Shown here: positions 3,098 to 36,335 of the stretch, piece by piece
Layout: each line of letters begins with the position of its first letter
Numbering within the stretch: position 1 is the stretch's first letter
NCBI RefSeq assembly: GCF_021129305.1
Contig: NZ_JAJOMB010000007.1
Location: 310,001-374,000, forward strand
Direction of reading: 5' to 3'
Length of the DNA: 64,000 nucleotides
Source: Kineosporia babensis
GTDB lineage: Bacteria; Actinomycetota; Actinomycetes; Actinomycetales; Kineosporiaceae
The notes under the pieces: model-generated
Databases searched by the model: none
Told to the model about the DNA's origin: nothing
Seen by the model: the letters and a program-made list of their open reading frames with translations, nothing else
Program-made: the position numbers and the translations under genes

Positions 3098-3334
3098 ATG
3101 CCCCAGAAGAGCGATGCACCATGGGCACGTATCGGCGGTCCGGGCGATCTGGGTACTTTCCTCCGCGAAATACGGCTGCAGGCTGACCTCACCCAGGAAG
3201 ACCTGGCCGAGAGCATCGGAGCGGATCGCCGGTTCGTCCATCAGGTCGAGACAGGCCAGAGCCCGCTGTACACCATGCGTCTCTTCGCCCTCCTGCGTGA
3301 GCTCGGAGTCGAACTGCAGGTCCACGTCCGATGA
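3098..3334 (+). CDS. hipB: HipB-type antitoxin, XRE family
   Basis: A 78-residue helix-turn-helix protein (LTQEDLAESIGADRRFVHQV at about residues 31-50) ending in the short strand LGVELQVHVR typical of HipB. It should bind and neutralise the HipA kinase encoded next and repress the operon through the AT-rich repeats just upstream. Its stop overlaps the hipA ATG (ATGA), the usual arrangement for this toxin-antitoxin pair. It resembles the orphan regulator at the left end of the window, so one may be a duplicate of the other. Confidence 0.8.
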   Translation: MPQKSDAPWARIGGPGDLGTFLREIRLQADLTQEDLAESIGADRRFVHQVETGQSPLYTMRLFALLRELGVELQVHVR

Positions 3335-4677
3335 CCGACCTCGACGCCTGGCTGTATGGCACGCGCGTCGCGGTCATCCGCCGCACCAAGGCCGGGCGAC
3401 TCAGCCTTCAGTACACCGAAGACGCCCATCGCCGATGGGGCCTGGGTGCGCGAATGATCTCTGTACAACTGCCTCTGCTCACGAACAGTCCTCCTTCCGT
3501 CGTCATCGAGGCCTGGCTACGTGGTCTTCTACCCGAAGGGCGAGCCCGCGCCCGCCTGGCCGAACGCGCCTGTGTGGACCCGAACGATGTCCTCGGATTC
3601 CTCGCCCGCTACGGTCGCGACACCGCCGGGGCCCTCGTCCTGGTTCCGGAAGGAGACGACCCCGGACAGCCCGATCGCCCCCTGCACGACCTGTCCGAGC
3701 AAGAGATCGCCGACCAGCTCGCCTTGGCGGACATGAACGGAGCGGCCGATCAGGCCAGCTCGCTCGCGGGCCTTGAGACCAAGATCGTTCTCACCCGCAC
3801 CGCCACGGGCTGGTCCATGCCCACCCCGAAGGCTCCGTCCACCCACATCGTCAAGCTCTCACGCCCCGAGGGCAGCCGAACCATGGACCTCATAGACACC
3901 GAGGCCGCGGCCCTCGAGCTCGCTTGCCGCGCCGGGATCAGCAACGTGCAGGCCCACCTGCAGACCTTCGCCGGCAAGCGGGCCATCGTCGTCACCCGGT
4001 ACGACCGCGTTGCCGACCTCGAGACCGCGACGGTCCAGCGTCTGCACCAAGAAGACGCGGCTCAGATGCTGGGCCTCAACACCGACGACCCGCTGCGCAA
4101 ATTCCAGTACGGAGGAGCACTCCCCTCCTTGGCCGCCATCGCGACCAAGCTCTCGGACATCGGCGTCGCTCTCGATCCGCTGCTGGCTCTGACCACACTC
4201 AATCTGGCCATCGGAAACGTCGACGCCCACGCCAAGAACATCTCCGTGCTGCACGGTCCAGAGGGCCGTCACCAGCTGGCCCCTGCCTATGACATCGCCA
4301 TGCACCTGCATCAGAACACCGGTGAGCACCGGTTCGCGATGGACGTGGCCGGTGAGCGCGACATGAACATCCTCGGCGCAGCGCACCTGATCGAAGAGGC
4401 GCTCAGTTGGCGGATCTCCCGTCGGCGGGCGGTCAGCATCGTCCGTGACACGCTAGAACGGCTGGAGGCCGCATCCAGCGCCATCGACCGCGATCGGCAT
4501 CCGGGCGTAGGCGAAGCCGCCTGGGCAATCGTCGATTCGAAAATTGCCAGACTGAATGACGAGCTCCATAAGTCTTTTGCACCACCAGTCGCCAAGTCAC
4601 GAGCAAAGGCGAGGGCCCCACAGGCGCGGATGCCGAAGGGCCACCCGTCCGGCGGCCGGTTCTCCGGGGAGCTCTGA
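3331..4677 (+). CDS. hipA: HipA-type serine/threonine kinase toxin
   Basis: A 448-residue protein of normal HipA length. In E. coli, HipA phosphorylates glutamyl-tRNA synthetase, which blocks charging and induces dormancy. Family motifs seen: an N-terminal beta domain (DAWLYGTRVAVIRRT), the RYDR block near residue 220, HQEDAAQMLG, the catalytic loop GNVDAHAKN (Asp298 and Lys/Asn following) and the metal-binding LAPAYD (Asp321). All expected kinase residues are present, so the toxin appears active. The C-terminal 60 residues are basic and Pro-rich, ending PKGHPSGGRFSGEL. It is coupled to hipB by a four-base overlap. Confidence 0.88.
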   Translation: MTDLDAWLYGTRVAVIRRTKAGRLSLQYTEDAHRRWGLGARMISVQLPLLTNSPPSVVIEAWLRGLLPEGRARARLAERACVDPNDVLGFLARYGRDTAGALVLVPEGDDPGQPDRPLHDLSEQEIADQLALADMNGAADQASSLAGLETKIVLTRTATGWSMPTPKAPSTHIVKLSRPEGSRTMDLIDTEAAALELACRAGISNVQAHLQTFAGKRAIVVTRYDRVADLETATVQRLHQEDAAQMLGLNTDDPLRKFQYGGALPSLAAIATKLSDIGVALDPLLALTTLNLAIGNVDAHAKNISVLHGPEGRHQLAPAYDIAMHLHQNTGEHRFAMDVAGERDMNILGAAHLIEEALSWRISRRRAVSIVRDTLERLEAASSAIDRDRHPGVGEAAWAIVDSKIARLNDELHKSFAPPVAKSRAKARAPQARMPKGHPSGGRFSGEL

Positions 4678-4764
4678 AGCGAACGCCCCGCGAGGATGGT
4701 TGAACGATGCGATGGCGCGGGAACAGACCCGAAAGTCCGGTTCATTTTCCTACGCTGATTACTG

Positions 4765-4785
4765 CATACAGGGTATGTTTGCCGC
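4765..4785 (+). promoter_or_regulatory. Leaderless promoter with inverted repeat before the Wadjet operon
   Basis: CATAC (4765-4769) and GTATG (4773-4777) form a perfect inverted repeat around AGG. TATGTT at 4774-4779 fits a -10 box and would place transcription start on or next to the ATG at 4786. No ribosome-binding site precedes that ATG. A repressor bound to the repeat would cover the promoter; the HTH-ImmA/IrrE protein of the same operon is the obvious candidate. I see no good -35 box. Confidence 0.4.
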
Positions 4786-5571
4786 ATGCTGGGGGAAAAT
4801 GAGGTCGTCGGTACGCTGCGCAGGGCGGGCCTGCTGAAGGCCGTGCAGTGGGCCTTCGACTCGGCGGTGCGCCGGTCGCTCGACGACTACGTGCCCAGGG
4901 CCGGGTACGACGAGCAGTGGCTCGGCCAGACGCGCTATGTGCTCCTCCGCGACCGCCTAGACCGGGTCTTCGGCTGCGAGCACTACGACGTCGGCCCGGG
5001 AGAGGAACATCTCGGCGAGGACGAGCTCTTCGCTGAACTGTCGCCCCTTGACCGCACGAGCATGCCTCGGTTACCGGCGGGCACGGTTCGCCGCGACAAT
5101 CTGAACAGCAGCCCCGGCTGGACGTTCGCGACCTGGCGGCTGCTGTTGACGTCGGGTGAGCTCGGCCAGTTGGAGCGCATCCCCTGGTCGCAGAAGAGCC
5201 CGACCAAACAGGCGGTGGCCCGGCAGTCGGGCCGGGTCGACCCTCGCCAGGGCGCGCTGTTCGACGCGGAAGCGCTCATGCGCCGACCTGATTCCGAGGT
5301 CGAGCTCGACAAGCACACGTTCGTGATCGCCCATGCCTTGGACGCGGTGGCTTCTGCGTCAGAGCTCGCCGTCGGCCTGCCTCGGCAAGGGTTCAGGGGC
5401 GAGAAAGCCTGGCACTGGCTTCATTTTCTTCCCACCGGCTTGGACGGGAACGGTGTGGGAGATACCGTCCTCGATCCAGCGGGTCCGGCTGCCCCAACCG
5501 GCGATCCGCTCGTCAAGAGGCGGCCCCAAATCGGCGAGGACGATGCTCGTCGTGCTAGTGATGACCGGTGA
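4786..5571 (+). CDS. Unknown 261-aa protein, first gene of the Wadjet operon
   Basis: A soluble, tryptophan-containing protein of no family I recognise. The first 60 residues are helical (LLKAVQWAFDSAVRRSLDDYV). The middle is rich in Arg/Leu and holds RYVLLRDRLDRVFGC and WTFATWRLLLTSGEL. Residues 195-230 hold FVIAHALDAVASASELAVGLP. Its stop shares bases with the GTG of the HTH-ImmA/IrrE gene, and that gene sits 13 bases before jetA, so this protein is probably co-expressed with the whole defence system. It could be the cleavage target or partner of the metalloprotease, but nothing in the sequence proves that. Codon use is like its neighbours. Confidence 0.7.
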   Translation: MLGENEVVGTLRRAGLLKAVQWAFDSAVRRSLDDYVPRAGYDEQWLGQTRYVLLRDRLDRVFGCEHYDVGPGEEHLGEDELFAELSPLDRTSMPRLPAGTVRRDNLNSSPGWTFATWRLLLTSGELGQLERIPWSQKSPTKQAVARQSGRVDPRQGALFDAEALMRRPDSEVELDKHTFVIAHALDAVASASELAVGLPRQGFRGEKAWHWLHFLPTGLDGNGVGDTVLDPAGPAAPTGDPLVKRRPQIGEDDARRASDDR

Positions 5572-6719
5572 ACTCACGCAAGTCTCCCCCAGATCGTGCT
5601 GCAGACGTCGCCCCTCGCTTCGACGGAGCGCGGCTGACCCTGGCCCGGCAGCTGGCGGGTCTGCGCAAGAGCGACCTGGCCGAGGTTCTGGCCAAGACAC
5701 CGACCGCGGTAGCCGGCTGGGAGTCCGGCGCGAAACGGCCTGCCGCGGCAACAGTGGCCCAGCTGGCGCTGCGGCTTTCGGTCGATCCGGGGTTCTTCGC
5801 TGTCCGGGGCGACGACATCGCAGCGCTCAGCAGCACCCCGCACTTCCGCTCGTTGCGTTCCACCCCCCAGCTCGCCCGGGACCAGGCGTTCGCCTACGGG
5901 CAGTTGGCGGTCGAGATCACCAGCAGCCTGGAGCGGCACGTCGTGTTCCCGGACCCTGATGTTCCCTGTTTCCCGGTGAGTGGCACCGAAGGCGAGGGAC
6001 CCGAACGAGCCGCGCAACTCGTCCGTAAGCAGTGGGGGCTCGGTGGCGATCCCGTCGGCCATCTCGTTCGCTTGCTGGAGGTTCACGGAATTCTGGTGGT
6101 TTTCAGTCCTGAGCAGGCGGCCTCGGTCGATGCCTACTCGTTCTCCAGCGCGTTACGGCCGATCGTGGTGCTCAACCCGATCAAGCGTGACTACTACCGG
6201 CAGCGCTTCGACGTCGCTCACGAGCTCGGCCATCTGGTCATGCACAACGATGCCGAGCCCGGCGGCCGGATCGTCGAGGAGCAGGCCAACCGTTTCGCCG
6301 AAGAGCTGCTCATGCCGGCCCGGACGATCCGGGAGGCCCTCCCGTCCAGGACGGGCGCTCAGGCCTGGGCAGACCTGGCGCGGCTGAAGGAACACTGGGG
6401 TGTGAGCATCCAGGCTCTGCTGTACCGGGCCCGGCGGCTGGGACGGCTCAGCGATGTGTCGTACCGCAACGCCATGAACACCGTCACGAACCGGGGCTGG
6501 CGTCGCAAGGAGCCCGGTCTGCTCAGCATCGTCGAGCAGCCCTCGCTGCTGTCCAGGGCCATCGCCATGCTGGCGGCCGAGGGCATCCAGGAAGAACAAC
6601 TGATCGGGCAGTGCCGGGTTCCCCAAGGGCTGTTTCGGGTGGTGACCTCACCGACGCCGTTCGTCATGACCCCGGTATCCGAAACGACCCCGCAGCACGG
6701 CGTCGTCTCGCTGCTGTGA
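5568..6719 (+). CDS. HTH - ImmA/IrrE metalloprotease regulator
   Basis: A 383-residue fusion. Residues about 20-75 are an XRE helix-turn-helix (LRKSDLAEVLAKTPTAVAGW). Residues about 150-290 are the ImmA/IrrE (COG2856) peptidase domain, with the zinc motif HELGH at 218-222 and the downstream EEQANRFAEELLMP that supplies the third ligand. Such proteins cleave or relieve repressors in response to DNA damage or foreign DNA (ImmA of ICEBs1, IrrE/PprI of Deinococcus). It lies between an unknown gene and jetA, coupled to the former and 13 bases from the latter, so it probably controls the Wadjet genes. The C-terminal 90 residues have no assigned role. Confidence 0.85.
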   Translation: MNSRKSPPDRAADVAPRFDGARLTLARQLAGLRKSDLAEVLAKTPTAVAGWESGAKRPAAATVAQLALRLSVDPGFFAVRGDDIAALSSTPHFRSLRSTPQLARDQAFAYGQLAVEITSSLERHVVFPDPDVPCFPVSGTEGEGPERAAQLVRKQWGLGGDPVGHLVRLLEVHGILVVFSPEQAASVDAYSFSSALRPIVVLNPIKRDYYRQRFDVAHELGHLVMHNDAEPGGRIVEEQANRFAEELLMPARTIREALPSRTGAQAWADLARLKEHWGVSIQALLYRARRLGRLSDVSYRNAMNTVTNRGWRRKEPGLLSIVEQPSLLSRAIAMLAAEGIQEEQLIGQCRVPQGLFRVVTSPTPFVMTPVSETTPQHGVVSLL

Positions 6720-6732
6720 ACCGGGAGGGCGA

Positions 6733-8190
6733 ATGGACTACGACCAGATCGAGCAGCTACGCACCCATCACCCGGCCTGGCGGCTGCTGAAAGCTGACAA
6801 CGCCGCGCTGATCCTGGCTTTTCTCGGGCAGGTGTTCGTCCAGGAGAACGTCCGATCGATCGAGCGCAGCGCGCTGGAGGCCCGGCTCGACGATCTGCTC
6901 TTCGCCCTGCGTGAGCAGCTCGGCGACAACGCCTTCCCGAAGAGCTCGCGAGCCTATCTCGACGACTGGGCCGCGCCCGGTAACGCGTGGCTGCGCAAGT
7001 ACTACCCGGCCGGGTCGGAGTCGGTGCACTTCGACGCCAGCGCCGACCTGGAGAAGGCCGTGGCCTGGGTTCACAACCTGCCGGCCCGCAGCTTCGTGGG
7101 CACCGAGTCCAGGCTGAACACGGTGTTCGAGTTGCTGCGGCAGATGGTTCACGGTGCCGAGACCGATCCGCAGACCCGCTTGGCTGAACTGAAGGCCCGG
7201 CGCGCGGAGATCGATGTGGAGATCGCCCAGGTCGAGGCCGGTGACCTGCCCATGATGGAGCCGGCCGGCCTGCGCGATCGCTACCAGCAGCTGTCCACCA
7301 CCGCCCGGGAGCTGCTGTCGGACTTCCGGCAGGTCGAGACGAACTTCCGCCAGCTCGACCGGCAACTGCGCGAACAGATCGCCACCTGGTCGGGCACCAA
7401 GGCCGGTCTGCTGGACGAGGTGCTCGGCAGCCGCACCAGTATCACCGAATCCGACCAGGGGCGTAGCTTTCACGCCTTCTACGACTTCCTGCTCTCCCCC
7501 GCCCGCCAGGAACAGTTCGTGCAGATGCTGGCCCGGGTGCAGGAGATGGCCGAGATCGGTGAGCACGACCCCCGCCTACGGCACATCCACCACGACTGGC
7601 TGGCCGCCGGTGAGCGGACTCAGTCGACGGTGCGGCAGCTGTCGGAGCAGTTGCGGCGGTTTCTGGACGATCGGGTCTGGTTGGAGAACCGGCGGGTGGT
7701 CGATCTGCTGCACGGCATCGAGTCCGTCGCCCTGCAGTTGCGCGAGCACGCACCGATCACCTTCGAGAGCGAGATCGACGGCAGCGCGCCTCAGATCGCG
7801 CTGCCGATGGAGCGTCCGCTGTACAAGCCGGCCGCGCGGTCGGCCATCGTCAGCGATCAGGTACATGAGGCCGACGACGAGGTGGACGCCTCGGTGCTCT
7901 ACGACCAGGTCAGGGTGGACACGCAGGAGCTGGCCTCGGGGGTGCGGCAGATGATGCAGGGCCGTGAGCGGGTGCCGTTGAACGAGGTTCTGCTGGCCCG
8001 GCCGCTCGAGCAGGGGCTGGCTGAGCTGGTCGGATATCTTTCGCTGAACGATCCGGGCTTCGACGTGCGCTTCGACGAGACCCGCAAGGAACACGTCCGG
8101 TGGGAGGACGACGGGGTGACCAGACAAGCGACTCTTCCCTCGGTCACCTACGTGCGGGCCGTCGGCGAATCGAGCGAGGAGGAAAAGTGA
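6733..8190 (+). CDS. jetA: Wadjet JetA, MukF/MksF-like kleisin (DUF3375)
   Basis: A 485-residue, highly helical protein beginning HHPAWRLLKADNAALILAFL, the characteristic start of DUF3375. JetA is the kleisin that bridges the JetC heads and holds JetB. A long coiled region spans residues about 150-225 (ELKARRAEIDVEIAQVEAG and on), and the C-terminal winged-helix region holds VPLNEVLLARPLEQGLAELVGYL. A good ribosome-binding site (GGGAGGG) precedes the ATG. Its stop overlaps the jetB GTG by four bases. Length and order match complete Wadjet loci and the mycobacterial MksBEFG/Ept cluster. Confidence 0.9.
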   Translation: MDYDQIEQLRTHHPAWRLLKADNAALILAFLGQVFVQENVRSIERSALEARLDDLLFALREQLGDNAFPKSSRAYLDDWAAPGNAWLRKYYPAGSESVHFDASADLEKAVAWVHNLPARSFVGTESRLNTVFELLRQMVHGAETDPQTRLAELKARRAEIDVEIAQVEAGDLPMMEPAGLRDRYQQLSTTARELLSDFRQVETNFRQLDRQLREQIATWSGTKAGLLDEVLGSRTSITESDQGRSFHAFYDFLLSPARQEQFVQMLARVQEMAEIGEHDPRLRHIHHDWLAAGERTQSTVRQLSEQLRRFLDDRVWLENRRVVDLLHGIESVALQLREHAPITFESEIDGSAPQIALPMERPLYKPAARSAIVSDQVHEADDEVDASVLYDQVRVDTQELASGVRQMMQGRERVPLNEVLLARPLEQGLAELVGYLSLNDPGFDVRFDETRKEHVRWEDDGVTRQATLPSVTYVRAVGESSEEEK

Positions 8191-8816
8191 GCGCAGCCCC
8201 GGTCCCCCGCAGCGAACTCAACTTGCCTCTGGCCATCACCTCTTTGATGAAGGGGGTGGTGTACGAGGATCTACATCCGCAGGTCTGGCGGCATCTGGTT
8301 CCACTGCAGCCGCAGATCCGCGACCACGTGGCGGTGATCGGCCTGACCCTGGTCGTGGACCCGTCCGAAGGTTATGCGTTTCTGCGGCAGTTGCCGGACG
8401 ACGAGAACGCCGAGGGCGCTGCGGTGCCGCGGCTGATTCCCCGACGGCAGCTGACTTTTCATCAGAGCATCCTGCTGGCCCTGTTGCGCAAACGGCTGGC
8501 CGAGTCGGACGCTGCCGACGGCGACACGCGGTGTGTGCTCACCCGCGAGCAGATCCTCGAGATGATCACGCTGTTCCTTCCGGCGGGGAGCACCGAGGCA
8601 CGGATGACCGACCAGGTGGACGCCCTGATCGGCAAGGTGGTCGAACTCGGGTTTCTGCGGCGGCTGAAGGACCAGGACGACTCGTACGAGGTTCGCCGCA
8701 TCCTGAAAGCGTTCGTCGATGCGCAGTGGCTGGCCGGGGTCCAGGAAGGGCTGCAGCGTTACGCGGCCGAGCTGGGTGTTCCGACAGCGCAGGGAGAAAC
8801 CGATGGTCGATCTTGA
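8187..8816 (+). CDS. jetB: Wadjet JetB, MukE/MksE-like KITE subunit (DUF4194)
   Basis: A 209-residue protein of the DUF4194 type, built of tandem winged helices that dimerise on the JetA kleisin. Visible landmarks are LPLAITSLMKGVVYEDLHPQVW at the start, the LLALLRKRL helix, LTREQILEMITLFLP and the ending DSYEVRRILKAFVDAQWL. The GTG at 8187 was chosen because it makes the usual four-base overlap with jetA and gives the normal length. The open frame runs further left to 8100, but only through Arg/Gly-rich sequence inside jetA. The 3' end overlaps jetC by 14 bases. Confidence 0.88.
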   Translation: MSAAPVPRSELNLPLAITSLMKGVVYEDLHPQVWRHLVPLQPQIRDHVAVIGLTLVVDPSEGYAFLRQLPDDENAEGAAVPRLIPRRQLTFHQSILLALLRKRLAESDAADGDTRCVLTREQILEMITLFLPAGSTEARMTDQVDALIGKVVELGFLRRLKDQDDSYEVRRILKAFVDAQWLAGVQEGLQRYAAELGVPTAQGETDGRS

Positions 8817-11800
8817 GAACCCGTCCTCTTCGTCGGGATTCAGGCTGCGCCGCCTGGAGGTCTGGAACTGGGGCACCTTCCACCACAAGGTCTGGTCGCT
8901 GGAGATCGCCGGCGGGCACGCCCTGGTCACCGGCGACATCGGCTCGGGCAAGTCCACGCTGGTCGACGCGGTGACCACGCTTCTGCTGCCCGCCAACCGG
9001 ATCTCCTACAACAAGGCCGCCGGTGCGCAGAACCGCGAGCGTGACCTGCGCTCATATGTTCTGGGGCATCACAAGTTCGAGCGCAACGAGCTCACCGGCA
9101 ACACCAGGCCGGTCCCGTTGCGCAGCCCGGGCCAGGACTACTCGGCGCTGGTGGCCGTGTTCGCCTCCGACGAGGCGGTGGTGAGTCTGGCTCAGGTGTA
9201 CTGGCTGAAGGAGGGACAGGCCGGTCAGCCGGAGCGGATGTTCGTGGTCGCCGATCACGAACTGTCGATCAGTGGGGACCTGGCCGGTTTCGGTTCGGAG
9301 ATCGCCGCGCTCAAGCGACGGTTGAAGAAGCAGCCGGGCACCGGCGTCCATGATTCTTTCCCGCCTTACGGCAACGATTTCCGCCGGCGGATGGGCATTG
9401 CCTCGGATCAGGCGATGGAGCTTTTCCATCAGACGGTCTCGATGAAGTCGGTCAGCAATCTCAACGACTTCGTGCGCACCCACATGCTGGAGCCGTTCGA
9501 CGCCGACCGTTGGATCAACCAGATTCTGCTGCACTTCGAGGACCTGACCCAAGCCCACGATGCGGTGGTGCGCGCCCGCCGCCAGCTCGATGCTCTGAGC
9601 CCGATTCTGGAGGAGGGCTCCAGGTACGACGCCCTGAGCGCCCAGCAGGCCCGGCTCGCCGAGGTCAGAGCGCATCTGCCGTACTTCACGGCGGCTCGCC
9701 GGCTGGATGCCTTCGCCGCCGACACAGAAGCGAGCGAGAAACGTATTGACGCTCTGCTCCAGGAGTCGTCGCAACTCACCGAGCGTTCGGGGGAACTCGG
9801 CAGCAAGCGGGAACAGCTTCAGCTGCAGCGCGCCGGGCTGGGTGGTGATCGGCTGCACGTCCTGGAAGAAAGCATTGCCCGGGCGATGACCGAGCGCGAA
9901 CGTCGCCGGGTGACTGCCGAAAAGGTGAACGACCTGCTGGGGCGCCTCGAGCTGACGCCGGTCACCGGCGCGCCGGGGTTCGTCCAGATGCGCGAGGCTC
10001 TGGACGGGGTCCGGCCCGGGTTGGAGGCAGCCGGCGCCGAGATCGACAACCGGCTGACCGACATCGCCGTCGAGCAGAAGGAGATCAAGACCGACAGCGA
10101 CGAGATCCGCGACGAACTCGCCAGCCTTCAGCAGCGGCGCAGCAACATCCCCCGACGCAGTCTGCAGTTGCGCGAGGAGCTGTGCGAGCACCTCGGAGTA
10201 GGCACCGAGACGCTGCCGTTCGCCGGAGAGCTGATCCAGGTCCGCGAGGACGCGGCTGCCTGGGAAGGCGCCGCCGAACGCGTCCTTCATGGTTTCGGTC
10301 TGTCGTTACTCGTGCCGAACAGCCACTACGGGTCGGTGGCGGCCTGGATCAACGATCGTCATCTGGGGGTCCGGCTGGTCTACTACCGGGTGCCCGCCAC
10401 CCTGGCCTCCACCAATCGTCATCAGGTTCCCGGACCGGAAACGCTCTTCCACCGGTTGGAGATCAAGGCCGACAGCGAGTTCTACGGCTGGATCGAACGC
10501 GAACTGTCCTCCCGAGCCTCACACGTCTGTGCTGTCTCGATGGACGTGTTCCGGCAGGAAGAACGCGCGGTCACGGTCACCGGACAGATCAAGGAGTCCC
10601 GCCGGCACGTCAAGGACGACTCCAAAGCGATCGACGATCGCCGGAACTACGTGCTGGGCTGGAGCAACCAGGCCAAGGTCGACGCCCTGCTGGCCCAGGC
10701 CCTCGAGCTCAACGAGCGCCGCCAGCTTCTGGCCAGTGAGCAGAAGAGCCTTCTGGGCCAGCGCGAGGAACTGCGCCGCAAGGGCACCGCGCTGGACCAG
10801 CTCGACGTCTACCAGACGTATGACGACCTGGATCACGAGTCGGTCGGCCGGCAGATCGCGCGGGATCAGGCCGAGAAGGATGATATCGAGCGTTCTTCCA
10901 AGGATCTGGAACGCATCACTGAGGAGCTGAAAGCTGTCGCCGACGAGATCCAGGCGCTGGCCGGCCGGATCGCTCAGACCAGCGAGAATCTGGGGCGGGC
11001 TCGCGGCGACCTCGAACGCGCTCAGGCCGGGCAACTCGAGTGCCGGGCCGTTCTGAAGGCCGCCGAGCAGGTTCCGGCTCCGGAGGCGATGAGCTCTTAC
11101 GTACCCGATCCAGCTCCGGTCACGGCCGATGCCTGGCAGAACTGGCAACGCACCACCAGCGACACGGTCAACAGCGAGATCGACCGGCGCCAGAAGCTCT
11201 TGCGCACCTGTGAAAGTACATTGGTCAGGCTGATCAGCGCCTTCCGTGAGGCGAACCGGACCGAGACCGTCGACATGGACGCCTCGGTGGAGGCCTTGCC
11301 CGACTACCGGGCCATGCACCACCGGCTTCTGCAGGACGACCTGCCCCGGTTCGAGGCCGAGTTCAAGAATTTCCTCAACACCAACACCATCCGCGACATC
11401 GCGATGTTCCGCTCGAAACTGGCTCAGGAGGAGGAGTTGATCCGCGAGCGGGTAGGCCGGATCAACATGTCCCTGGCCGACATCGACTACAATCCGGGCC
11501 GGTACATCACCCTCGAGACCACCCGCACCCCGAACATCGAGATCCGCGACTTCCGTTCCGAACTGCACGCCTGTACCGACGAGGCGCTGGGCGGAGACGG
11601 CGAGCAGTACTCCGAGCAGAAGTTCCTGCAGGTCCAGAAGCTCGTCGAGCGCTTCCGGGGCCGGGCCGGCCAGGTCGATGCGGACAAGGCCTGGACCAAG
11701 CGGGTCACCGACGTGCGTAACTGGTTCGTCTTCTCAGCTTCGGAACGGCACCGGGACGACGACAGCGAGTTCGAGACGTACACGGACTCGGCCGGTAAGT

Positions 11801-12165
11801 CCGGTGGTCAGAAGGAAAAACTGGCCTACACGATCCTCGCCGCCTCGCTGGCCTACCAGTTCCAGCTCGACGGCGAGCAGGAGAAGACCTTCCGCTTCGT
11901 GGTGATCGACGAGGCCTTCGGACGCGGCTCGGACGAGTCCACCCGGTTCGCGCTGACCTTGTTCCGCCGGATCGGCCTGCAACTGCTCATCGTGACACCG
12001 CTGCAGAAGATCCACGTCATCGAACCGTACGTCGACGCCGTGGGTTTCGTGGAGAACAAGACCGGCAGCAACTCCCGGCTGCAGACGCTGACCATCGAGG
12101 AGTTCCGGGCCCGGCGCGAACGGCACCGGATGGTGGACGTCGTCAAGGTCGAGACGGTCTCGTGA
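8803..12165 (+). CDS. jetC: Wadjet JetC, MukB/MksB-like SMC ATPase
   Basis: A 1120-residue SMC-type ATPase, the motor that extrudes DNA loops so that JetABCD can size and cleave small circular plasmids. The N-terminal head has FHHKVWSLEIAGGHALVTG followed by the Walker A GDIGSGKST (from residue 44). Two long coiled-coil stretches (about 250-420 and 600-820) flank a hinge-like region. The C-terminal head has the signature SGGQKEK (from residue 1000) and the Walker B FVVIDEAFG (from 1032) followed by GRGSDEST. All ATPase motifs are intact. The ATG at 8803 was preferred to the upstream GTG because conserved sequence starts there and it overlaps jetB by 14 bases. Confidence 0.92.
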   Translation: MVDLENPSSSSGFRLRRLEVWNWGTFHHKVWSLEIAGGHALVTGDIGSGKSTLVDAVTTLLLPANRISYNKAAGAQNRERDLRSYVLGHHKFERNELTGNTRPVPLRSPGQDYSALVAVFASDEAVVSLAQVYWLKEGQAGQPERMFVVADHELSISGDLAGFGSEIAALKRRLKKQPGTGVHDSFPPYGNDFRRRMGIASDQAMELFHQTVSMKSVSNLNDFVRTHMLEPFDADRWINQILLHFEDLTQAHDAVVRARRQLDALSPILEEGSRYDALSAQQARLAEVRAHLPYFTAARRLDAFAADTEASEKRIDALLQESSQLTERSGELGSKREQLQLQRAGLGGDRLHVLEESIARAMTERERRRVTAEKVNDLLGRLELTPVTGAPGFVQMREALDGVRPGLEAAGAEIDNRLTDIAVEQKEIKTDSDEIRDELASLQQRRSNIPRRSLQLREELCEHLGVGTETLPFAGELIQVREDAAAWEGAAERVLHGFGLSLLVPNSHYGSVAAWINDRHLGVRLVYYRVPATLASTNRHQVPGPETLFHRLEIKADSEFYGWIERELSSRASHVCAVSMDVFRQEERAVTVTGQIKESRRHVKDDSKAIDDRRNYVLGWSNQAKVDALLAQALELNERRQLLASEQKSLLGQREELRRKGTALDQLDVYQTYDDLDHESVGRQIARDQAEKDDIERSSKDLERITEELKAVADEIQALAGRIAQTSENLGRARGDLERAQAGQLECRAVLKAAEQVPAPEAMSSYVPDPAPVTADAWQNWQRTTSDTVNSEIDRRQKLLRTCESTLVRLISAFREANRTETVDMDASVEALPDYRAMHHRLLQDDLPRFEAEFKNFLNTNTIRDIAMFRSKLAQEEELIRERVGRINMSLADIDYNPGRYITLETTRTPNIEIRDFRSELHACTDEALGGDGEQYSEQKFLQVQKLVERFRGRAGQVDADKAWTKRVTDVRNWFVFSASERHRDDDSEFETYTDSAGKSGGQKEKLAYTILAASLAYQFQLDGEQEKTFRFVVIDEAFGRGSDESTRFALTLFRRIGLQLLIVTPLQKIHVIEPYVDAVGFVENKTGSNSRLQTLTIEEFRARRERHRMVDVVKVETVS

Positions 12166-13343
12166 GGACACTGTCGCTGCCCCGAGGAACGCGCTGGGCC
12201 ACCAGCGATGACGTCCTCAGCCTCCTGCGCAGGCGGTGGTCAGCTGGTACTGACCTCAGCGAACTGGCTCTCGGCGAAGCGTGGGAACCACTGGTCATCG
12301 GCCTGCGCCCGCCTTCGGCGGCCCAGTACGCCAACGACTTCGACGCGGTCCAGGCCTGGGCAGGCCGCTGGCGTGCCCGGCTTCCGGCCGGGCTTCGCGT
12401 GGAGTGGCAGGCTGTCGGGGGTCGGCGCTCCGGCGTCGTTCAGCTTCCGGTCCGGGTTGTGGTCGAATCCCGCGGCGACCTCTGGCGGCTGCTGCAGGTC
12501 GCTCAGCAGGTCCACGTGTTCGAGAACATCCTTGATGACGTCGGTAGCCGGCTTCCGGACGCCCGCGACTGGGTCAGTCGTCATCCCCAGCGTGTCCTCG
12601 CCGAGGCTGCGCACTGGCCATCGTTCATCGCGGTCGTCAACTGGATTCGCGATGCCATGCCTGCCGATGCCTGGGTTCGCCAGGTCGACGTCCCCGGGGT
12701 GGACACCAAGTTCGTCGAGGTCCACCGCGAGACCCTCGCCGCGTTGCTCGAGGTGTGCCTCCCTCCGGAACGTCTTCACACCGGCAACTCGTTCGCGCAG
12801 CGCTACGGCTTCGCCGTCAAACCCGCCTATGCGCGTGTGCGCCGCCCCGATGGAACCGCCCTGCTGCCGGGTGTTTCGGAAATGACGGTGCGGGTTTCCG
12901 AACTCGACGCCCTGGACTTGCCCGGGCACGTCTTCGTCGTCGAGAACGAGGTCACCTACCACGCGTTCCCGCCTGCCCCGAATGCCCTGCTGTTCCTCGG
13001 GGCCGGCTACGGGGTCTCCCGGCTCATTGCCGTCAACTGGCTGGCGGACCGGCCGGTGACCTACTGGGGAGATCTGGACACTCACGGCTTCGTCATGCTG
13101 GACCGACTGCGGGCGCGATTCCCGCAGGTACGCTCCATGCTGATGGACCGGGCAACCTTGCTGGAGCACGAGGCTCACTGGGGCGTGGAGGATTCACCGG
13201 TGAATGTCGACTTGGAGCATCTGAGCGTCGACGAGGCGGCCCTGTACGTCGATTTGGTCGAGGACCGGTATGCCGTGGGGCTGCGACTGGAGCAGGAACG
13301 GATCCGTTTCGGCCGGGTGCTGGCTGCGACAGCGCTGGGCTGA
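12162..13343 (+). CDS. jetD: Wadjet JetD, TOPRIM nuclease (DUF3322-DUF2220)
   Basis: A 393-residue protein with the N-terminal DUF3322 and C-terminal DUF2220 layout of JetD, the toprim endonuclease related to Spo11/topoisomerase VI A that cuts plasmid DNA once JetABC stalls. Toprim acidic residues are visible: the Glu of VENE at 261-263 and the Asp pair of GDLDTHG at 304 and 306. The N-terminal part includes LGEAWEPLVIGLRPPSAAQ and the arm VFENILDDVGSRLPDARDWV. The GTG start overlaps the jetC stop by four bases, completing the coupled operon. The nuclease appears intact. Confidence 0.9.
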   Translation: MRTLSLPRGTRWATSDDVLSLLRRRWSAGTDLSELALGEAWEPLVIGLRPPSAAQYANDFDAVQAWAGRWRARLPAGLRVEWQAVGGRRSGVVQLPVRVVVESRGDLWRLLQVAQQVHVFENILDDVGSRLPDARDWVSRHPQRVLAEAAHWPSFIAVVNWIRDAMPADAWVRQVDVPGVDTKFVEVHRETLAALLEVCLPPERLHTGNSFAQRYGFAVKPAYARVRRPDGTALLPGVSEMTVRVSELDALDLPGHVFVVENEVTYHAFPPAPNALLFLGAGYGVSRLIAVNWLADRPVTYWGDLDTHGFVMLDRLRARFPQVRSMLMDRATLLEHEAHWGVEDSPVNVDLEHLSVDEAALYVDLVEDRYAVGLRLEQERIRFGRVLAATALG

Positions 13344-16296: not shown

Positions 16297-16584
16297 ACGA
16301 GGTCACCGCCCTCACCCAGACAGACCGCAAGCCGGCCCACCCAGAACGCGCGTCCCATGGTGGAGGCCCTACTTTCTGATGCACGGTGTGCTGGGCCGGC
16401 GACCAGATGCTCATAGAACGGCAATACAGGTTCAGCTGACGTCGCACCCCTGCGTTCGCAACCCTCAGGATAGAAGTGCCTCAGCGCAGTAGGCACGGTG
16501 CCAGCGGTCCGGGCGAGCTTGCTCTGCGTCGTCAGGAAGGCGATGACGTCCCCGAGAGGGCCACCTCTACAACCCCGCAGCTCT

Positions 16585-16608
16585 ACAATTTTTGTGTATA
16601 TTTATTTT
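16585..16608 (+). promoter_or_regulatory. AT-rich leaderless promoter of the AlbA-like gene
   Basis: TATATT at 16597-16602 fits a -10 box and puts the start of transcription at the GTG at 16609, with no ribosome-binding site in between. ACAA and TTGT arms (16585-16595) form a small inverted repeat over the promoter. The base composition is unlike everything around it, which supports a regulated or acquired promoter. Confidence 0.4.
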
Positions 16609-18351
16609 GTGCAGCTTGCTGAACTCGCAGTCCTGGTCGCCGACCTTCGACAAGAGGGCAGCGACACACCCGCAGTCGAGGTCAAGCGGGCGTCGAACGG
16701 CTTTCCCGAAAGCCTGTCGCCTACGATGTCCGCTTTCGCCAACACGCCAGGCGGCGGAACGGTTCTCTTCGGCTTGGACGAAAAGGCCGGTTTTGCCGCC
16801 GTAGGCGTCTACGACACCGCTGCTTGCAAATCCGCGCTTGCTGCGAAATCTCGTCAGGCACTCGACCCGCCAGTCACCTTCGAGTCCTGGGATCTGACAT
16901 TCGAAGGTGCCGCTGTCCTGGTGGTGAAGATCCATGAGCAGCCCGCTCATGGCAAGCCGTGCCGAGTCATCGCGTCGGGCAAGGCGTACCTGCGAGCCTA
17001 CGACGGCGACTACGAGCTCTCCCAGGTCGAAGAACAAGCGTTCATCGCCAACCGCAGTACGCCCGGCTTCGACCGACAACCCGTTTCCGGAACCACGACA
17101 GACGACCTGCGCCCAGACCTCCTGTCCGGGTACCTCGCTTCCTGCCGGGCGTCCTCCACTGCCTTGGCCGCTATGCCCGATGAGGAGATTCTTTTCCGCA
17201 CGGGCGTAACCACCGACCCCGACCGAATCCCCAGCCTCGCCGGCCTGCTCGCCCTGGGCACCTACCCCCAGCAGCACCTTCCCAATTGCGTGATCCAGGC
17301 CTCTGTAGCCCCTCGCGACAGCGACCCGTCGGGAACCAGAGCCGCCGACGTGCGCCGCTTCGACGGACCGATCCCCTTGATGCTCGACGAGGCTCTGCGC
17401 TGGGTGCAGCGCAATACCCGCACCCGGGTCCGATTCGGGGTTGACGGCCAAGGCCGCGACGAACCCGAATTCCCCGTCGAAGCAGTGCGTGAACTGCTGT
17501 CCAATGCCCTGATCCACCGAGATCTCGGCCCCCATACCCTTACTCAGGCCATCACCTTGCGGCTCGACGACAAACAACTGGTGCTGTCCAACCCCGGTGG
17601 CTTGTGGGGGATCACCGTCGACCGGCTAGGAAAGACCGGCACCACCTCGGCGCGGAACGGCCACCTCCTGAGAATCTGCCAGAACGTGCGCAGCCAGGAA
17701 GGTAGTCGCGTGGTCGAAGCCCTCGCCTCCGGCATCCCCACCGTCCTGTCCAGCTTGCGCAACGCAGGCATGGTGCCGCCCCTCTTCCGCGACCAGGGCA
17801 TCAGCTTCACCGTCGTTGTGCCCAACCACGCGCTTCTCGCAGTAGACGATCTGGCCTGGCTAGGTTCTCTCCCCGCCGCCGCGAGTCTCAGCGACCAGCA
17901 ACGGCACGCCCTGGTGGCCATGCGGCACGGCCAGACCTGGACCAACCAGAGCTTCCGCGAGACCTTCCCGATGGATTCTCGCCAAGCCCGCGCCGAACTC
18001 GCCGGGCTTGTAGAAGCGGGCGTCGCCACCGCCGATGGCGAACGCGGCGGACGCGTCTACCGAATCGCACCTGCCCCGGCCAGCCGACGCCGGTCGTCCC
18101 CTCCCGCTTCGGTGCCTGCAGGCTTCCCTGTCTCAGTGCCTTCAGGCCGTGGATCGGGTAGACACCAGAACTGGGAGCCCATCCAGCAACAACTGCAGAC
18201 CGGCGAGAAGTCAGCCTCAGAACTGGCCGAGGCCACGGGCCTGAGCGCCCGGCAGATCCAGTACGCCCTTCAGCAGATGAGAGACGCCGGACTGGTCACC
18301 TTGATCGGCAGCCCTGGCCGACGCGAGAGCCGCTATCGGGCAACCCAGTGA
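16609..18351 (+). CDS. AlbA_2/Schlafen-like ATP-binding transcriptional regulator
   Basis: A 580-residue protein with the COG2865 layout. The N-terminal AlbA_2 (Schlafen AAA_4) domain holds VEVKRASNGFPESLSPTMSA and the glycine-rich NTPGGGTVLFGLDEK (residues about 20-60). A GHKL-type ATPase-like helix, VEAVRELLSNALIHRDL, lies in the middle. Winged-helix DNA-binding segments are at the C-terminus ([16 protein letters not shown] and SARQIQYALQQMRDAGLV). Proteins of this type occur in defence islands and as regulators. The GTG at 16609 follows a -10 box directly, so I prefer it to the upstream in-frame GTG at 16498. The gene stands alone between two 26-bp direct repeats. Confidence 0.75.
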   Translation: MQLAELAVLVADLRQEGSDTPAVEVKRASNGFPESLSPTMSAFANTPGGGTVLFGLDEKAGFAAVGVYDTAACKSALAAKSRQALDPPVTFESWDLTFEGAAVLVVKIHEQPAHGKPCRVIASGKAYLRAYDGDYELSQVEEQAFIANRSTPGFDRQPVSGTTTDDLRPDLLSGYLASCRASSTALAAMPDEEILFRTGVTTDPDRIPSLAGLLALGTYPQQHLPNCVIQASVAPRDSDPSGTRAADVRRFDGPIPLMLDEALRWVQRNTRTRVRFGVDGQGRDEPEFPVEAVRELLSNALIHRDLGPHTLTQAITLRLDDKQLVLSNPGGLWGITVDRLGKTGTTSARNGHLLRICQNVRSQEGSRVVEALASGIPTVLSSLRNAGMVPPLFRDQGISFTVVVPNHALLAVDDLAWLGSLPAAASLSDQQRHALVAMRHGQTWTNQSFRETFPMDSRQARAELAGLVEAGVATADGERGGRVYRIAPAPASRRRSSPPASVPAGFPVSVPSGRGSGRHQNWEPIQQQLQTGEKSASELAEATGLSARQIQYALQQMRDAGLVTLIGSPGRRESRYRATQ

Positions 18352-36258: not shown

Positions 36259-36335
36259 TGGTCGGGCTGACAGGATTTGAACCTGCGACCCCCTGACCCC
36301 CAGTCAGGTGCGCTACCAAGCTGCGCTACAGCCCG
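36259..36335 (-). tRNA. tRNA-Pro(GGG)
   Basis: The minus strand folds as a complete tRNA. The acceptor stem is CGGGCTG (from 36335) with CAGCCCG, the anticodon stem CCTGA/TCAGG encloses CTGGGGG, giving anticodon GGG, and the T-loop is GTTCAAATC. The discriminator A and the CCA end are encoded. The 3' end points toward the accessory half of the window. Confidence 0.93.

Follow-up and report, generated by a model that had tools for sequence, protein, structure and literature searches.

Why do two further genes run almost without a gap into a complete Wadjet operon, and do they belong to that system? The question is raised by a 64,000-nucleotide (nt) stretch of DNA from the soil bacterium Kineosporia babensis (GCF_021129305.1, contig NZ_JAJOMB010000007.1, positions 310,001 to 374,000 of the forward strand), here called the window, which lies on contig C67 of a 9.4-Mb draft genome. 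Six genes at 4786-13343 are concerned, of which the last four, jetA to jetD, encode a type I Wadjet system. The first two, described in an earlier note as an unknown gene and an ImmA/IrrE regulator, are assigned from profile matches and adjacency to the RosmerTA type of anti-phage toxin–antitoxins (rmrT-rmrA) and are not counted as Wadjet accessories. The whole is probably to be explained as a RosmerTA pair joined head to tail to a complete Wadjet operon, with shared expression, likely autoregulation by RmrA and addiction to the cassette.

The six-gene cassette and the identity of its first two genes

In the list of open reading frames (ORFs), all six genes are intact, open throughout and tightly packed (Table 1). 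GTGA overlaps join rmrT to rmrA (5568-5571), jetA to jetB (8187-8190) and jetC to jetD (12162-12165), jetB and jetC overlap by 14 nt, and the gap of 13 nt from the rmrA stop codon to the ATG of jetA contains GGGAGGG. The jetB start (GTG at 8187; the mechanical ORF begins at 8100) was inferred from the GTGA overlap and homology, and the jetC start (ATG at 8803; mechanical ORF from 8719) is also inferred. PADLOC models of type I rank first for all four Jet proteins, and the genes stand by coordinates in the order jetA-jetB-jetC-jetD. Their Pfam profiles are, respectively, DUF3375, DUF4194/MksE, SbcC_Walker_B with AAA_29, and DUF3322 with JetD_C. The ATPase motifs of JetC (GDIGSGKS at 44, SGGQ at 1000, FVVIDE at 1032) and the Toprim motifs of JetD (VEN at 260, GDLD at 303) are intact, and the JetD glutamate is aligned with an alanine in the solved chain labelled JetD(E248A). 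In its four subunits, their order and these motifs, the system is a type I Wadjet like MksBEFG of Corynebacterium glutamicum; unlike type I jetABCD in general, it has jetA 13 nt after rmrA and not behind a leader of its own. The earlier statements that jetA to jetD are intact and coupled, and that two more genes run into them by an overlap and a 13-base gap, are borne out.

The second gene had been read as an HTH-ImmA/IrrE metalloprotease (HTH, helix-turn-helix), and this holds: the protein of 383 amino acids (aa) matches the M78 domain (PF06114, E 1.3e-22) and HTH_3, with HELGH at residue 218. Published work describes RosmerTA as a group of anti-phage toxin–antitoxins whose antitoxin is of the ImmA type (PMC10440598, PMC12322248). 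RmrA has the HTH and ImmA/IrrE (M78) domains of such an antitoxin, and the adjacent 261-aa protein, which had been left without a name, falls into the toxin family RmrT (PADLOC PDLC03941). Taken alone, its match is weak (E 1.9e-5); at E≤0.001 the model matches 18 of 46 aligned members, the 261-aa protein included, with a best value of 1.4e-11, and does not match the other 28. RmrT gave no Pfam match at E≤1, nor did any of the 46 aligned members at E≤0.01, and a Foldseek search of solved and viral structures returned nothing at E≤0.001. Its best profile match among solved sequences reaches only E 0.19, and there is a hint of a PD-(D/E)XK nuclease fold.

Like RmrTA of Gordonia phage Kita (PMC10440598), the pair sets an HTH-ImmA (M78) antitoxin beside a small toxin without a Pfam family; unlike the Kita pair, it has jetABCD directly after it. 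The Kita toxin is reported there to depolarise membranes and has a predicted membrane C-terminus (PMC10440598), whereas RmrT of the cassette shows no likely membrane segment. Its highest 19-residue Kyte-Doolittle mean is 1.43, and an activity other than that of the Kita toxin is therefore likely. The usual cut-off for membrane segments on this scale is near 1.6. An ImmA-type domain and an HTH are also found in ImmR/ImmA of ICEBs1, according to the same paper (PMC10440598). Here, unlike in ICEBs1, the HTH and the protease share one protein, and the partner is no separate HTH repressor, since RmrT shows no repressor domain in the Pfam search at E≤1.

Co-inheritance in Kineosporia and distribution of the two systems

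The same six genes are found in the draft genome of K. rhizophila (G001, contig C39). A blastn comparison of the window with that locus gives one block, 4736-13328 (8.6 kb, 86.3% identity), bounded by the rmrT promoter and the 3' end of jetD, and no further match at E≤1e-5; the K. rhizophila locus stops at a contig end about 1 kb past its 343-aa upstream gene. The flanks differ and the block stands at different loci in the two species. Downstream of it, K. rhizophila has a DUF4011/DUF3320 helicase matching the candidate defence model PDC-S37, whose counterpart in the present genome is on contig C26 (72-74%) with a transposase-like gene after it, and the window gene at 16474-18348 is matched at 81% by a gene on K. 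rhizophila contig C6, while C39 has no counterpart of it. Between rmrA and jetA the gap measures 13 nt in the window, against 12 nt in K. rhizophila. Identity at the aa level is 82.8% for rmrT, 91.9% for rmrA, 93.6% for jetA, 95.2% for jetB, 88.1% for jetC and 83.7% for jetD. With synonymous divergence (dS) of 0.44-0.64 and a nonsynonymous-to-synonymous ratio (dN/dS) of 0.05-0.17 (rmrT 0.17), all six genes are under purifying selection, kept and diverged alike.

A jetA tree was built with 43 rows, 3 of the other 45 loci being left out because they were short or had no match. It pairs the two Kineosporia copies (100/100), and the rows that come next in path distance (G250, G113, G110, G075) lack RmrTA in front; its deeper branches are partly open, and long-branch warnings apply to the tree. 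A third Kineosporia genome (G005) has hipBA, about 4 kb on a gene like the 343-aa one, and then rmrTA, without a jetA match. In other Kineosporia no close hipA was found beside the counterpart of the downstream gene, and no clean empty site was shown. The nearly identical junction and the block edges shared with K. rhizophila at another locus support the view that more than chance has put the six genes together as a unit.

Elsewhere the two systems are found apart. Titled genome records were scanned with the RmrT alignment, giving 135 pattern-matching stretches, of which 89 encode relatives; the best 80 were kept, comprising 78 distinct loci that were read up to 10 kb on each side. RmrA adjoins RmrT in 77 of the 78 (within 60 nt in 76, at 109 nt in L134) and was not detected at one (L121). 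Jet genes were seen within the fetched stretch at a single locus, that of K. rhizophila, and not at the other 77; contig ends leave less than 3 kb past rmrA at five loci (L087, L099, L108, L111, L145), so that a downstream jet could be missed there. A search of 394 genomes of the class gave RmrT-like matches in 10, two of them marginal with E near 1e-3. JetA (PF11855) was matched in 68, of which 65 are above the cut-off; among 58 relatives the numbers are 4 (RmrT-like) and 23 (JetA). In both sets RmrT and JetA are adjacent by coordinates only in this genome and K. rhizophila, and genomes G248 and G126 have both on different contigs. A second RmrT-like ORF lies on the opposite strand about 1.2 kb from rmrTA in Paractinoplanes durhamensis (L074, 7899-8762, minus). 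As to a carrier, a phage-borne origin was rejected: viral contigs yielded no relative of RmrT, none of 50,697 phage records matched it, and only 4 of 72,556 plasmid records match, all below 60% identity. The collections searched thus give no hint of a recent carrier.

The view from the Wadjet side is similar. Eighty jetA upstream regions were fetched; left out were fragments, a place lying at the start of a contig, and two places that were read within longer loci, L152 and L153. When these two loci were added for a direct RmrA and RmrT search, the pair stood in front of jetA in 1 of 82 regions (G001), for which reason a six-gene Wadjet as a general arrangement was rejected; the other 81 have no relative of either protein, an outcome that the earlier note had named as counting against its reading. 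In 47 of the 80 (G001 included) the closest ORF called upstream shares the strand of jetA, and gaps below 37 nt occur in G001 (12 nt) and for a doubtful 59-aa ORF in L227 (19-nt overlap), with the ORFs called by a simple frame-composition rule and not by annotation. Ten of the near same-strand neighbours, searched against Pfam, comprise DUF4436, EF-G, CobB/CobQ type (2), Fic, HTH-M78, RDD, FtsX and two proteins without a family. A 367-aa ORF stands 57 nt before jetA in three genomes that belong to one family (L229, L231, L232); the copy searched, that of L229, is a Fic protein. Among the papers found on Wadjet with RosmerTA and on Wadjet with ImmA, none has such a joint operon as its topic by title or abstract opening. 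RosmerTA and Wadjet are each known, and their union as one unit is rare.

Promoter region and proposed operation

At the front edge of the block, before rmrT, stands a conserved element, GGTTCATTTT-n11-TACTG. The pattern GGTT[CGT][AG] with TACTG behind it (one mismatch allowed in these five letters) is present upstream of rmrT in 42 of 53 regions, with an offset of 21 in 40 of the 42, compared with a mean of 1.5 and a maximum of 6 of 53 in 200 mononucleotide shuffles, a control that is generous since the pattern was read from the tested sequences. The regions are those of the window, of G005 and of the 51 of 78 loci with a confidently placed start codon (27 were dropped), and some are near-identical (L082, L083, L086 and L087; L102 and L104). 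In the 9.4-Mb genome the 26-nt form has a single exact copy, at 4739-4764; one more site has two mismatches, where the reversed control has 3, and the looser GGTTSA-n15-TACTG gives 3 sites against 1. A palindrome just before rmrT, CATACAGGGTATG, was rejected as the operator, as it is not kept in two other Kineosporia genomes. At the aligned place of a -10 hexamer the three Kineosporia genomes have TATGTT, TATGGT and TATCTT, and TAnnnT is seen by eye at a similar distance in many relatives. Because the hexamer lies so close to the start codon (Table 1), a leaderless rmrT transcript is suggested.

Between 4500 and 14000 no sigma-70-like site was detected by a consensus scan, such scans being weak in actinobacteria. 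The same interval has 9 terminator-like sites, against 4.2 ± 2.1 in shuffles, and none in 6700-6760. The earlier note had named a promoter and terminator between 6719 and 6733 as refuting its reading; there are none, as 13 nt leave no room for them. The closeness of jetA to rmrA makes the rmrT promoter the natural source of jet transcription, and the element, preceding the whole unit, should drive the Wadjet genes too. Being conserved across actinobacteria, it also offers a direct handle on RosmerTA regulation.

On this basis the operation of the cassette may be proposed as follows. Transcription would most likely start at the conserved, probably leaderless rmrT promoter and continue to jetD. 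RmrA would neutralise RmrT and, through its HTH, most likely repress the rmrT promoter, in which case the levels of the Jet proteins would follow the state of RmrA. An infection that removes or occupies RmrA could then free the toxin and derepress the operon, Wadjet included; RosmerTA would act on phages by cell arrest, and Wadjet would cut small circular plasmids. In addition, the toxin–antitoxin pair would make loss of the cassette costly and so stabilise Wadjet. Such a locus bears on the question whether toxin–antitoxins serve to stabilise other defences or to guard them.

Several observations weigh against this proposal. The element is missed in 11 of the 53 upstream regions, including that of Kineosporia G005 (the first G differs), its looser form has two other sites in this genome, and GGTTSA...TACTG is no clean palindrome, so that its role as the RmrA operator is a guess. 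Four of the terminator-like sites are on the plus strand and fall within genes, namely rmrT, jetA (two overlapping) and jetC, and jetA may be served by a promoter within rmrA. The fold search points to no activity for RmrT. Finally, the rmrA-jetA junction is carried by only two genomes of one genus, and a defence-island cassette can be co-inherited without functional coupling.

Alternative readings and neighbouring genes

The strongest alternative, which is possible though clearly less probable than the joined unit, is that RosmerTA and Wadjet came to lie end to end by chance in a defence island and work independently, with read-through possible. That the pair lacks Jet at 77 of 78 loci and Jet lacks the pair in 81 of 82 regions fits such stacking, as does G005, where the pair lies near hipBA without jetA. 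The adjoining genes point the same way, namely the candidate helicase of the PDC-S37 model beside the K. rhizophila block and hipBA beside that of the window. Nevertheless, chance does not readily account for a 13/12-nt junction kept in two species at different loci, in a block that ends at the promoter and at the last gene, when same-strand neighbours of jetA otherwise stand at least 37 nt off (save G001 with 12 nt and the doubtful 59-aa ORF).

A more speculative reading, to which we give a small chance, is that RmrTA guards Wadjet: RmrA, or the occupancy of its operator, would report the state of the Jet proteins, and RmrT would kill the cell once Wadjet is disabled or jet is lost. If a product of a plasmid or phage put Wadjet out of action, RmrT would then be released, and Wadjet would have gained a toxin fail-safe. 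Anticodon nucleases are a comparable fail-safe for restriction systems. A parallel is offered by genome G259 (L151, about 9,600-11,000, minus), where jetA is preceded by genes for a HigB-like toxin (PF05015, E 5.3e-8) and for an HTH-M78 protein. The latter matches PD-Lambda-2_B (E 5.6e-30) and lies 86 nt, by open frame, before a divergent jetA. Like this PD-Lambda-2-like pair, the Kineosporia pair has a toxin-type and an HTH-ImmA gene directly upstream of jetA, on the same strand; G259 differs in its toxin family, its antitoxin subfamily and the divergent jetA. By its predicted families, G259 is an independent joining of a toxin–antitoxin to Wadjet; it would be a second instance if the guard reading were true, and it keeps open that such joinings are selected.

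Very unlikely is the switch proposed earlier. It would make the ImmA-type protease a regulator devoted to Wadjet which, when DNA damage or foreign DNA induces it, cleaves a repressor or a Jet subunit. Its induction by DNA damage was an extrapolation, for which, as for a protease switch acting on Jet proteins, no evidence was found. The family and the HELGH motif are those of such a protease, and 3 of 78 jetA-positive genomes have an M78 gene no more than 1.5 kb from jetA (7 others with fragments or sub-cut-off matches were left out), against about 0.08 expected under uniform placement of 136 M78 matches in about 406 Mb with 84 jetA places. The three are G001 (RmrA itself), G418 (divergent) and G259 (same strand); in G072 the distance is 5.3 kb. 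Yet one of the three is thus the K. rhizophila RmrA and another follows the HigB-like gene (PD-Lambda-2_B), and the tendency of defence genes to cluster suffices to account for the excess. Moreover, the constant partner of the family is RmrT, not Jet, and the locus has no separate repressor gene. As RmrTA stands alone nearly everywhere it was seen, the dedicated regulator was rejected as the principal explanation; what stands of the earlier view is that the six genes form a unit (junction, block edges, promoter element), and what finds no support is that the regulator and the unknown belong to Wadjet. In G418 (L152, 7146-8324, minus) the M78 gene adjoins jetA, and Pfam finds the M78 domain only. 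Least credible of all is a Wadjet accessory subunit in place of a toxin, for which the common direction with jet and the co-inheritance in two species could speak, in view of the 77 loci where no Jet was seen, the RmrA beside it in 77 of 78 and the RmrT profile match.

A hipB-hipA pair (Table 1) that was overlooked earlier stands immediately before the cassette, ending 108 nt from rmrT; its hipA has no match in the K. rhizophila genome.

Table 1. Positions in the window of the cassette genes, the elements before rmrT and the adjoining hipBA pair.
Feature	Position	Strand	Size or supporting match
rmrT, RosmerTA toxin candidate	4786..5571	+	261 aa; PADLOC PDLC03941 E 1.9e-5
rmrA, HTH + ImmA/IrrE (M78) antitoxin candidate	5568..6719	+	383 aa; PADLOC PDLC03955 E 2.7e-108
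jetA (kleisin), type I Wadjet	6733..8190	+	PDLC00457 E 3.6e-203; solved JetA 8dk1 E 8.8e-21
jetB (KITE)	8187..8816	+	PDLC00474 E 4.8e-82; solved JetB 8dk1 E 2.1e-5
jetC (SMC ATPase)	8803..12165	+	PDLC00512 E 0; solved JetC 8dk2 E 5.3e-67
jetD (Toprim nuclease)	12162..13343	+	PDLC00530 E 2.3e-121; solved MksG 8b7f E 9.9e-25, JetD 8q72 E 3e-20
Promoter element, putative operator, GGTTCATTTT-n11-TACTG before rmrT	4739..4764	+	conserved
-10-like hexamer TATGTT	4774..4779	+	6 nt before rmrT start codon
hipB-like HTH gene of hipBA pair, neighbour outside the cassette	3098..3334	+	HTH_31/HTH_3
hipA-like gene, neighbour outside the cassette	3331..4677	+	HipA_C E 3.3e-39, Couple_hipA

The helicase counterpart on contig C26 of this genome (L262, 8425-15521) is split by a stop into open frames of 1548 and 452 codons, and the PDC-S37-type helicase of K. 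rhizophila is a single frame of 1978 codons. The window gene at 16474-18348 has matches to a Schlafen AlbA_2 domain, a RecG-like C-terminal domain and a winged helix. The sole tRNA found in the window is a tRNA-Pro (ggg) at 36259-36335 on the minus strand.

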